DNA of 58,103 nucleotides from an uncultured Thermosynechococcus sp. (lineage in GTDB: Bacteria > Cyanobacteriota > Cyanobacteriia > Thermosynechococcales > Thermosynechococcaceae), in contig NZ_CALJEM010000002.1 of NCBI RefSeq assembly GCF_938074695.1, forward strand, positions 1 to 58,103. The letters run 5' to 3'. Under the pieces are notes generated by a model. It searched no databases. It was not told the origin of the DNA and saw nothing but the letters and a program-made list of their open reading frames with translations. Positions 14,608 to 17,565 of the stretch are shown here, in pieces (position 1 is the first letter of the stretch; each line of letters starts with the position of its first letter). Position numbers and translations under genes: made by a program.

Positions 14608-15312
14608 TTAGTAGCGCACAAAACACTGTTTGAGCTGATTGTTTCCTGGCTGGTAGAGGACGTAACTAGCCATACCGGACTGTCGCCCCACGGAACCCAC
14701 GCCAATGAGACGCCGCTGTGGCAGGTCAAAGGTTTGTGTCTCCCTGCCGTCTAGGGTTTTCACTTCACTGGTTAAGGCTTCTGCACGAACCCAGCAGTCA
14801 AACAGTTCTCCAGAACGTCCACAGAATAGCTGATTGGCATCGGCTCGAATTAGGCGATCGCACAACACCGCCGGAGAAGTAGCCGGCGTTAAAACCTCTG
14901 AGGCACTGACCGGGCTGCCATGAACTAAGAGACAATCTAACTCATGGAAACCAAAGGGGAGCGATCGCAACCACTGCACTGAAGAGCGGGAAATGGACTC
15001 CCACAGTTGGCCCACTGCTGCCTCTCCCTGCTGGGCAATCAACTCAGGAACTTCGCCCGACAGGCCAACACCGAATAGATTAAAGCATTGCTCCTCCCAC
15101 CAGCCTATACAAATCTGGGGGTCTAAAGGCTCTAGGTCAGGCATTTGCAAACGTTGCACCACAGCATCGTTTTGCCCCTTAAGACCAATGATGTCTCCTA
15201 GAACGTAAAGGGTCGTAATGGGGGGACGTTGTCGCTGTAAATCCCTAAGCACTGCCTCCAGTGCCCTCAGATTCCCCTCAATACCGCTGAGGATAGCCCA
15301 GTGAGCGATCAT
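14608..15312 (-). CDS. Degenerate metallophosphoesterase-like protein
   Basis: The protein has 234 residues from ATG 15312, which overlaps the stop of the upstream phosphoesterase by four bases. It is a paralogue of that neighbour: the order LSGIEGN, YVLGDIIGLKG, CLLVHGSP, FCGRSGE, GVGSVGRQSG matches SCIHGN, YCLGDLVGYGP, CFVHGSP, FCGHTH, NAGSVGEPRHG. The metal-binding residues of the first motif (D/C-x-H) have become G-x-E, and both His of GHTH are lost, while the GD and HGSP blocks remain. Catalysis is therefore unlikely, and a regulatory or partner role for the intact copy is a reasonable inference. Last gene of the folE unit. Confidence 0.75.
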   Translation of the reverse strand: MIAHWAILSGIEGNLRALEAVLRDLQRQRPPITTLYVLGDIIGLKGQNDAVVQRLQMPDLEPLDPQICIGWWEEQCFNLFGVGLSGEVPELIAQQGEAAVGQLWESISRSSVQWLRSLPFGFHELDCLLVHGSPVSASEVLTPATSPAVLCDRLIRADANQLFCGRSGELFDCWVRAEALTSEVKTLDGRETQTFDLPQRRLIGVGSVGRQSGMASYVLYQPGNNQLKQCFVRY

Positions 15313-16109
15313 CGCTGGCAAACGTGATGAGGATCATCCGCTCGTTCTGCAAACTCCATGCCCCGCGCCAATCGCCATGCAAAAATTGGCGGCAACCCCT
15401 GCTCAAGAATGGCGGCGCAGGTTTTCTGGTAATCATAGGGAACTTCCCGTAGCGTGACTTCTTGGGTATCAGTGTCGTAGATAACGTAGGTGGCATTGGG
15501 ACGGCCATGGCGTGGCTCTCCTACCGAGCCGGCATTGACAATCATCTTGACGCTAGCTTGAAATTCTTGGGGGGTTTCTCCCCTGTGGTGGACTCGAATC
15601 TTTCCCTCCCGTAAGTAGCGCACATAGGGAATGTGGGTGTGGCCACAGAAGAGCACATCTGCTTGAGCGGCTAGGACTCGCTCAAGGGCAGCAAATCCAT
15701 GCATCCTGGGAAGGAGATATTCATGTTGGCTGTTAGGACTGCCGTGGACAAAGCACAGGTTTCCCTGGCGTAGGCTCATTGGCAATTGGGCAAGGTATTC
15801 GCGAACTTCAGGATGCAGCACCCGATTCGTCCACTCATGGGCACGTCGCCCCCGTTTTTCGGCCAATTGAGAAGGATAGCTACATTCACAGGCATTCAAA
15901 CCCATGACAATATCTTCATCCCAGCACCCCTGACAGGTGGGAATGTCGAGGGAGCGAATCATCTCCACCACTTCATTGGGATAGGGACCATAGCCCACAA
16001 GATCACCCAGACAGTAAATTTGATCTACTCGCTGGCGATCAATATCTAACAAGACCGCATTCAGGGCTTCGTAATTGCCGTGAATACAAGAAATGACGGC
16101 GTACTTCAT
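15309..16109 (-). CDS. Metallophosphoesterase (calcineurin-like, YfcE type)
   Basis: The protein has 266 residues. Motifs run in the family order: SCIHGN (7-12), CLGDLVGYGP (33-42), a GCWDED block near 61-66, FVHGSP (120-125), CGHTH (155-159) and NAGSVGEPRHG. The usual first Asp of the D-x-H-G-N motif is Cys8, which is unusual, although His10, Asp36, His122, His157 and His159 are present. Members hydrolyse phosphodiesters or phosphoproteins with two metals; the substrate here cannot be told. The ATG overlaps the CobW-like stop by four bases and its own stop overlaps the next gene, so translation is probably coupled. Confidence 0.85.
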   Translation of the reverse strand: MKYAVISCIHGNYEALNAVLLDIDRQRVDQIYCLGDLVGYGPYPNEVVEMIRSLDIPTCQGCWDEDIVMGLNACECSYPSQLAEKRGRRAHEWTNRVLHPEVREYLAQLPMSLRQGNLCFVHGSPNSQHEYLLPRMHGFAALERVLAAQADVLFCGHTHIPYVRYLREGKIRVHHRGETPQEFQASVKMIVNAGSVGEPRHGRPNATYVIYDTDTQEVTLREVPYDYQKTCAAILEQGLPPIFAWRLARGMEFAERADDPHHVCQR

Positions 16110-16870
16110 CCTTCAGCCTCCACCTGTGTGCGGTAGTGAACTTGGTATTGCGCTAAAACAGTGTCACTGAGGACGGCATCGGCAATGAGTTCGCGGACGG
16201 CGGCTTTGTCTAGGTGATAGCCAATCAGTTCTAAACCGCTCCAGCGTTGGGGGCGCCCTTCTAACCATGGTGGGACGTTGAGGTTGGTGTACTCGATCTC
16301 CCCAAGACCCAGACAAAAATCAACGGCAAAGGCTTGACCATCCGGCAGTTCAAAAATTCCCTTTAGCCGCTGCACTTGACCATAGGCGCCCTCTGTGAGT
16401 TCAAGGAGCAGCTCATCTAAACTGGGAGGATCAAAGACTTGGCCGGTGAGTTCTACTTGCCACAGCTCGGGCAAAGTGGGGGCGATCGCCGGCAAGGACA
16501 CGGCGGGTTCAATCACTTCATCGGCCCAGTGGCAAAATTCTGTCTCCTGGGGGGTGGCGATCGCCACCCGCTTAACCGAAGCCACCGGAAGCTGCAACCG
16601 GTGGACATCCAAGTGATAGCCAACCTCCAGGAAAAATTGCCCCTCCTTTGGCAAAGTGTTCCAGCATTTCTCTAGGCTTATTGTGGGCAAGACTTGTAAT
16701 CGTGGATAGAGATACCCCATGCGTACCAAATCTACCCCCATTGCCCCATACCCCGGACAGGCGTAAAAAAGGGCTTCCTGCCAACTCTGGGCCGCTAATT
16801 GCTGCCGAATCCAGTGGGTCTTGCCGGCACCCCAACGACCGGCGACAACAATGACTTGGCAGGTATCCAT
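16106..16870 (-). CDS. CobW/COG0523-like P-loop protein, reduced
   Basis: The protein has 254 residues. A Walker A loop GRWGAGKT (residues 11-18) opens the protein, in the place of GxxGAGKT of CobW GTPases. The C-terminal part (RLKGIFELPDGQAF, then RWSGLELIGYHLD) matches the CobW C-terminal domain. The G-domain is shorter than the normal 300-400 residue proteins: I see neither the CxCC metal motif nor the NKxD guanine-specificity motif. COG0523 proteins act as metal (often zinc) chaperones, and several families sit beside folE; it starts 8 bases after folE here. A metal-handling role is inferred from that context. Whether it still hydrolyses GTP is uncertain. Confidence 0.7.
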   Translation of the reverse strand: MDTCQVIVVAGRWGAGKTHWIRQQLAAQSWQEALFYACPGYGAMGVDLVRMGYLYPRLQVLPTISLEKCWNTLPKEGQFFLEVGYHLDVHRLQLPVASVKRVAIATPQETEFCHWADEVIEPAVSLPAIAPTLPELWQVELTGQVFDPPSLDELLLELTEGAYGQVQRLKGIFELPDGQAFAVDFCLGLGEIEYTNLNVPPWLEGRPQRWSGLELIGYHLDKAAVRELIADAVLSDTVLAQYQVHYRTQVEAEG

Positions 16871-16878
16871 GGCGTTGT

Positions 16879-17529
16879 TTAGTGGAAGGAGGGTTGATGG
16901 CGAATCAGGTCAAGAAATTCTTGACGGGTGCGGGCATCCTCTGCAAAAACCCCCTGCATTGAACTGGTGACCGTCCATGACCCCGGCTTTTGAACCCCGC
17001 GCATGACCATACACATGTGGGTGGCTTCAATCACCACTGCCACACCTTGGGGCTGGAGCAACCCCTGCAGGGCATCGGCAATTTGCTGGGTCAATCGCTC
17101 TTGGACTTGAAGACGCCGCGCATACATTTCACAAATGCGGGCAATTTTCGACAATCCAATCACTTTGCCATTGGGAATATAGGCCACATGGGCGCGACCA
17201 ATAATCGGCAAAATATGGTGCTCACAGGAACTAAATAGATCAATGTCGCGCACTAAGACCATTTCGTTGGTGTCTTCGTGAAAAACCGCCCCATTGAGAA
17301 TCTCATCAAGGGATTGATAATAGCCGGAGGTTAAAAATTTCAAGGCCTTGACCACTCGCTTGGGGGTGTCCCGCAGTCCCTCGCGATCTGGATTTTCACC
17401 CAACCCCATCAGTAATACGCGCACAGCCTGCTCCATCTCGGCCTCGGAAACGCGGGGAGAGGGAGTCATTGGGAGTGCAGCAATAGCAGCATCTGCCGTG
17501 GCTAGTTCAGGAAGGGAAAACTGGGTCAT
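16879..17529 (-). CDS. folE: GTP cyclohydrolase I
   Basis: This 216-residue, zinc-dependent enzyme converts GTP to dihydroneopterin triphosphate, the entry to folate and pterin synthesis. The zinc and catalytic residues are visible: Cys102 and His104/His105 in [20 protein letters not shown], and Cys173 in [28 protein letters not shown] is the usual helix. It is the first gene of a compact minus-strand unit with a CobW-like protein and two phosphoesterase-like proteins. A Fur/Zur-like palindrome lies 22 bases upstream of the ATG. A second pterin enzyme gene, folB, is elsewhere in the window. Confidence 0.96.
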
Positions 17530-17550: not shown

Positions 17551-17565
17551 TGATAACGATTATCA
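17551..17565. promoter_or_regulatory. Fur/Zur-type operator upstream of folE
   Basis: TGATAACGATTATCA is a 7-1-7 dyad with one mismatch, matching the general Fur-family pattern TGATAATnATTATCA. It lies 22 bases before the folE ATG, where a repressor would block transcription. Zur and Fur sites look alike; zinc is suggested by the zinc enzyme FolE and the COG0523-like gene behind it. No binding data are available. Confidence 0.6.

Follow-up and report, generated by a model that had tools for sequence, protein, structure and literature searches.

The two adjacent metallophosphoesterase-fold genes analysed here, which we call MPE1 and MPE2, lie within a window of 58,103 nucleotides (the whole stretch of DNA analysed) from an uncultured Thermosynechococcus sp., where they share a run with a short CobW-like gene and a second folE gene. 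The reading that we favour, tentatively and at slightly below an even chance, is that they encode a zinc-stress heteromer composed of a thiolate-modified phosphohydrolase (MPE1), a pseudoenzyme subunit (MPE2) and a dedicated NTPase. MPE1 and MPE2 would thus be two subunits of one complex, predicted by structure modelling, that cyanobacteria use under zinc scarcity. At each metal of the two-metal site of MPE1, a cysteine thiolate would have replaced one ligand of the oxygen or amide type, and MPE1 would most likely still hydrolyse a specific phosphorylated small molecule; MPE2, its metal site lost, would act as a structural or regulatory subunit; and the short CobW-type NTPase, which has no CxCC motif, would dock on the pair and probably load or gate the metal site. 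When zinc is plentiful, Zur probably represses the window's run of folE-II, cobW, MPE1 and MPE2. We found no description of the MPE1-MPE2 pair in the literature searched; it adds a conserved, unexplained unit to cyanobacterial zinc-starvation neighbourhoods, and would offer a clear-cut example of an enzyme that many genera retain alongside its dead twin, with a paired ligand-to-cysteine change in the partner. The features of the window are as follows.

14608..15312, minus strand: MPE2, predicted pseudo-metallophosphoesterase, 234 aa; D40 and H131 are the only ligands left of the seven expected
15309..16109, minus strand: MPE1, metallophosphoesterase-fold protein, 266 aa; Cys8 and Cys62 replace Asp and Asn ligands, and H10, D36, H122, H157 and H159 are retained
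16106..16870, minus strand: short CobW-like P-loop protein, 254 aa; CobW_C present, CxCC absent
16879..17529, minus strand: folE-II, the genome's second GTP cyclohydrolase I gene, which heads the run
17551..17565, no strand: Zur-box-like palindrome TGATAACGATTATCA, ending 21 bp from the folE-II start, with 1 mismatch to the consensus

The run thus reads folE-cobW-MPE1-MPE2 on the minus strand, with 8 bases between the end of folE and cobW, a four-base overlap of cobW and MPE1 (16106-16109) and a four-base overlap of MPE1 and MPE2 (ATGA, 15309-15312). A reading made earlier from the sequence alone (hereafter the sequence-only reading) had described the last of these overlaps and an intact MPE2 frame, and we found both, the MPE1 frame being intact as well; it had not mentioned Cys62 of MPE1, the upstream CobW-like gene, or the Zur-box-like palindrome and the zinc-starvation setting. 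The 234-residue length of MPE2 corresponds to an ATG start at 15312, the earliest start given by the ORF finder being a TTG at 15321 (237 aa). MPE1, MPE2 and the truncated CobW-type NTPase form a three-gene module, in which the four-base overlap of cobW and MPE1 recurs in 58 of 84 distinct cases and that of MPE1 and MPE2 in 10 of 76, so the latter arrangement of the window is not typical, a point against the favoured reading.

The genes near MPE1 and MPE2 were counted at 91 loci, a set that includes the window plus duplicates (MPE sequences are identical between L051 and L125 and between L119 and L120, and L057, L059, L061 and L075 share an identical MPE end), so that the locus counts are not independent. 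The neighbours were full-length COG0523 (40 loci), folE (37), an FAD-binding protein (26), hemB (24), znuB (20), znuA (17), znuC (14), hisI (10) and thrS (9). Identities were checked with Pfam on one example each; for znuB and znuC, this check established no more than an ABC-3 permease and an ABC ATPase, respectively. Genes of these kinds are reported for Zur regulons in excerpts of PMC2770081, PMC6103462 and PMC4628125. An annotated example of the neighbourhood is found on plasmid A of Trichormus variabilis ATCC 29413 (L162). The folE-II gene of the run is a second copy, a folE 67-69% identical to it being present elsewhere in all 11 Thermosynechococcus genomes (69% in G000).

Zur-like sites were scored against the palindrome TGATAATNATTATCA, the letters of which we take to be the Zur-box consensus. 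With at most 2 mismatches, we identified 164 sites, compared to 8.0 expected under a first-order model, at 77 of the 91 loci. Such sites lie within 300 bp upstream of hemB (20/22), thrS (7/9), the FAD protein (17/25), znuA (7/15), COG0523 (20/46) and the short cobW (33/68; 1/9 at loci taken, from their genome size, as picocyanobacterial and 32/59 at the others), and are rare upstream of folE (5/37), znuC (2/14), znuB (0/18) and hisI (0/10), with random-position controls of 0.5-3.0. The assumed consensus is supported by the presence of the site before hemB in 20 of 22 cases, and a 15-bp palindromic site is known in cyanobacteria, according to the excerpted part of PMC10957091. The FAD/NAD(P)-binding protein, which is often preceded by such a site, is about 415 aa long (e.g., L082 736-1980). 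In the window, 17551-17565 is the sole site with at most 2 mismatches and, under the assumed consensus, places a Zur box at the promoter of the run; with at most 3 mismatches there are 3 sites vs. 1.28 expected, and 15 of 100 shuffles reach as many, so this looser count is uninformative and the claim rests on the 1-mismatch site together with the 91 loci. G000 carries three FUR-family genes.

These observations suggest that the MPE pair is a unit of the zinc-starvation response. Against Zur control everywhere, the picocyanobacterial-type loci are mostly without a site, and the excerpted portion of the WH8102 Zur study (PMC9337993) does not name the module, if WH8102 carries it. The low site counts before folE, znuB and hisI also speak against the favoured reading. 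In PCC 7002, according to excerpts of PMC4628125, loss of zur did not derepress the phosphoesterase gene that belongs to the Zur cluster. That result, however, comes from a locus whose copy in the pAQ7 stretch that we fetched is decayed and without MPE1; pAQ7 of PCC 7002 carries, at L161 5610-7381, a decayed module with an MPE2 fragment beside copies of folE and hemB. The MPE1-MPE2 unit is also found in small genomes taken to be those of marine picocyanobacteria. An excerpt of PMC9009326 lists a metallophosphoesterase after porphobilinogen synthase in a predicted operon (organism unconfirmed).

MPE1 belongs to Pfam Metallophos_2 (E 7.7e-22, 78.4 bits, cut-off 27). The ligands of the two-metal site in metallophosphoesterases are supplied by the motifs D-x-H, GD, GNH(D/E), H and GHxH, and MPE1 departs from this canonical set at two positions while retaining the other five ligands: Cys8 stands in place of the Asp of the first motif, as the sequence-only reading had noted, and Cys62 in place of the Asn of GNHD. 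All 84 cyanobacterial rows have both cysteines, as against 0 of 22 outgroup homologues, all 22 of which carry Asp and Asn at these sites (20 from other classes of the phylum, in genomes where our search found no MPE2 orthologue, and 2 from Adhaeribacter and Paraclostridium, of which plasmids only were searched). The sites of Cys8 and Cys62 presumably bind different metals of the pair in this fold, so each metal would have gained one thiolate. Beyond the metal ligands, Cys74, Cys76, Cys231, His262 and Cys264 are invariant (C74-x-C76 and H262-x-C264); Cys231, His262 and Cys264 are specific to MPE1, and Cys74 and Cys76 are also present in the two plasmid homologues. H91, H129, R144, R164, R200 and H201 are likewise invariant, each occurring in at most 1 of the 22 outgroups, and several of the MPE1-specific invariant His and Arg residues adjoin metal motifs in the sequence. 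This pattern of residues suggests a fit to a specific substrate pocket.

Comparison of MPE1 to known structures gives close matches to metallophosphoesterases of the YfcE/ApaH/SapH type (Metallophos_2; 3RQZ, and 3QFM for SapH), with which it shares the fold and the order of motifs (E 2.9e-35 for 3RQZ; Z of 26-28 with VIA-align, in a match list that mostly covers residues 1-255). Unlike these proteins, MPE1 has Cys for Asp and Asn in every row, and is found together with an NTPase and a paralogue that is apparently dead. At the position of the GNHD catalytic His, MPE1 has Trp63, so that the motif reads GCWD; SapH, which its PDB title calls an Ap4A hydrolase, has GNWE, with Trp at the same position, and Trp63 alone therefore does not imply a dead enzyme. 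The Asp-to-Cys and Asn-to-Cys changes may abolish hydrolysis; we favour a hydrolase because the MPE1-specific invariants suggest a pocket and because a close fold, that of SapH, is a nucleotide hydrolase. On the Adhaeribacter and Paraclostridium plasmids, the MPE1-like proteins (L159 3001-3780 and L160 3001-3744) have the Asp and Asn ligands and the CxC pair, and their genes adjoin arsenite methyltransferase genes. Carriage by viruses was considered and rejected, as a scan of viral contigs with the MPE1 alignment identified no relative.

The short CobW-like protein of the window scores 27.5 bits for CobW_C (cut-off 22), a domain that is also above the cut-off in 4 of 7 other short CobW proteins, and the Pfam cobW domain exceeds its cut-off in none of the 7, nor in the window protein. 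The P-loop is present in 63 of 68 short CobW rows, whereas CxCC is found in 0 of 68 and an NKxD-like motif in 1 of 68, compared to 46 of 46 for both motifs among full COG0523 proteins from the same loci. The short form thus resembles the COG0523/CobW zinc metallochaperones in its CobW_C domain, its P-loop and its kind of neighbourhood (excerpts of PMC2770081), and differs from them in the lack of CxCC and of a full nucleotide-binding domain.

This deficiency bears on a different interpretation of the module, which we consider possible although rather unlikely: a zinc carrier or insertase built on the phosphoesterase fold, in which MPE1 would be no hydrolase and zinc would be passed to FolE-II, HemB-II, ThrRS-II and others, and in which, with the same limited probability, MPE1-MPE2 would supply the metal-binding part that is missing from the short CobW NTPase. 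The absence of CxCC from all short CobW rows, the invariant C8, C62, C74-x-C76, C231 and H262-x-C264 of MPE1, the predicted docking of CobW and the frequency of zinc-enzyme paralogues among the neighbours argue for a carrier, which accounts for the NTPase without CxCC and for the extra cysteines of MPE1 equally well as a hydrolase does. Conversely, the large number of Arg, His, Tyr and Trp residues that are invariant in MPE1 and specific to it suggests that the protein holds a pocket for a substrate rather than a store of metal, and full COG0523 is encoded at 40 of the 91 loci, so the chaperone job may already be taken. A more specific proposal, which we regard as unlikely, is a three-protein machine, without a described counterpart in the literature searched, in which a CobW-type NTPase without a metal site drives a two-zinc thiolate MPE1 that is held by a metal-free MPE2; if true, it would scavenge the last zinc of a starved cell for insertion into the replacement zinc enzymes.

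In MPE2, the first motif reads G10-x-E12 instead of D-x-H, the His pair of GHTH is replaced by R166 and G168, and Trp71 occupies the site that corresponds to MPE1 Cys62 (the Asn of GNHD), whereas GD (D40) and HGS (H131) are retained; the sequence-only reading had reported the losses in the first motif and in GHTH and the two retained motifs, and the residues are as it described. Thus, five of the seven expected ligands are lost, and most of the substitutes are conserved, with E12 the loosest (of 93 rows, G10 in 92, E12 in 78, D40 in 93, W71 in 91, H131 in 93, R166 in 93 and G168 in 84). Neither Pfam nor NCBIfam gives a match to MPE2 at E values up to 1; the protein is 31% identical to MPE1 (E 4.9e-19), and hhalign aligns the two with probability 99.9 (E 4.5e-34), so that, as judged by sequence comparison, MPE1 and MPE2 are homologous beyond chance. 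Residues 264-516 of the predicted chain described below, its MPE2 half, match 2QJC (Z 16.2, rmsd 3.5, 189 aligned). MPE2 therefore has the homology and the fold of a calcineurin-like metallophosphoesterase and lacks its set of metal ligands. The Pyrococcus proteins 1NNW and 2GJU (PH1004) have the same fold (Z 28) and are also without D-x-H (ANIAGN), although, unlike MPE2, they have other residues at the lost sites; metal-ligand loss in this fold thus has a precedent.

Among 386 genomes of the phylum, we identified MPE1 in 92 and MPE2 in 96, with both in 92, MPE1 alone in 0 and MPE2 alone in 4. The E values of the counted rows are 2.8e-71 or better for MPE1 and 9.8e-22 or better for MPE2; the count leaves out G103, G113 and G201, which match the MPE2 query weakly, as well as the weak matches in rows marked 'same phylum' (38 in one search). 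In all four MPE2-only genomes the protein is truncated: it is present from residue 65 in G074, as C-terminal fragments in G133 and G139, and without its first ~16 residues in G383. Interruptions affect MPE2 in G209 and G379, and MPE1 in G197, G320 and G379, so that one subunit is broken and the other intact in G209 (MPE2 broken) and in G197 and G320 (MPE1 broken), and both are broken in G379; these cases count against the favoured reading. Second copies of MPE2, partial or interrupted, were seen in G283 (C36 350-823), G272 (C58 14408-14743) and G110 (L112 4370-4531).

To predict contacts, AlphaFold2 was run on in-silico read-through chains that join neighbouring same-frame genes by the real intergenic linker and do not represent a known protein. 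The MPE1-MPE2 chain of L040 (93-row alignment) reached pLDDT 89.6 and pTM 0.82, and the CobW-MPE1-MPE2 chain of L079 (79 rows, 9 of them with CobW) pLDDT 83.1 and pTM 0.78, both with no decoy control; pTM is a global score, and homologous domains may dock falsely. Nine MPE1 rows that were mis-placed in an earlier alignment were left out. Freely floating domains are expected to score clearly lower in pTM and pLDDT, and we therefore read both chains as predicted contacts; residues 73-78 of MPE1, the loop with Cys74 and Cys76, are among the least certain in the model. The sequence-only reading had proposed a heteromer of a catalytic copy and a pseudoenzyme: the purifying selection described below, the tie of MPE2 to its partner and the predicted heteromer are consistent with it, whereas MPE1, with Cys as two of its metal ligands, is no standard catalytic copy. 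Heteromers in a Zur regulon have a precedent in Anabaena: according to excerpts of PMC4787780, the threonyl-tRNA synthetase T2, a Zur-regulated zinc-starvation paralogue whose activity is impaired, pairs with the active paralogue T1 in a heterodimer; T2 differs from the MPE pair in being a tRNA synthetase and in having the housekeeping copy as its partner. At L058 (3936-5519), CobW-like and MPE1 sequences lie within one 527-aa open frame; this frame was considered as a proof of contact and given little weight, as the end of the CobW part reads as unrelated sequence and a frameshift is therefore likely.

The same two proteins might also serve the same response without a stable complex, with MPE1 acting as an enzyme and MPE2 sensing a ligand or regulating on its own, which we consider improbable. 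The genes can lie apart (7.4 kb in G199, and on separate contigs in G064 and G072), and 1NNW and 2GJU were deposited as single hypothetical proteins; against separate action stand the predicted association of the two-protein chain, with its pTM of 0.82, and the truncation of MPE2 in all four MPE2-only genomes.

Within Thermosynechococcus, MPE1 is present in 3 of 11 genomes and MPE2 in the same 3, the other 8 being without both. In G000 the full run lies between msc and ftsH, and in G389 it is on a 6.5-kb contig, adjoining msc. At the msc-ftsH site of G387 (L099 8940-10105), MPE1 and MPE2 are intact, folE-II has an internal deletion and the short cobW a nonsense codon; the persistence of both MPE genes beside this cobW counts against the favoured reading. 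G241 has folE-II only, with a weaker Zur-like site, and in G173, G083 and G388 msc adjoins ftsH with no run between them (loci surveyed: L180, L181, L182 and L184); ftsH lies outside the fetched msc stretch in G390 and G386, and G381 and G391 have no msc match. The run is thus being lost in Thermosynechococcus, MPE1 and MPE2 going together. The sequence-only reading had held that absence of the degenerate copy from close relatives would speak against it; MPE2 is indeed absent from 8 of the 11 genomes, but the same eight have no MPE1 orthologue, and what was lost is therefore the unit rather than a single copy.

In pairs among G000, G389 and G387, we obtained dN/dS values of 0.075, 0.049 and 0.058 for MPE2, 0.038, 0.030 and 0.026 for MPE1, 0.113, 0.079 and 0.091 for the neighbour msc, and 0.040, 0.009 and 0.011 for folE (partial in G387), those involving G387 being rough because dS is near 1; for cobW the single computable pair gave 0.112. 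The comparison of dN/dS that the sequence-only reading had proposed thus places MPE2 at 0.05-0.08, which is not neutral. Furthermore, 23 positions of MPE2 are invariant across 41 aligned sequences, and in a 67-row tree, which has long branches and a midpoint root, a branch with support 100/100 separates the MPE2 rows from all others, the support of the MPE1 group being weak (65/24). As far as sequence comparison can tell, MPE2 is a conserved pseudoenzyme under purifying selection. That it is a decaying duplicate kept only through linkage, as its missing or broken state in some relatives could suggest, is highly improbable given the low dN/dS, the invariant positions and the fully supported clade, and we rejected it on the basis of dN/dS and conservation.
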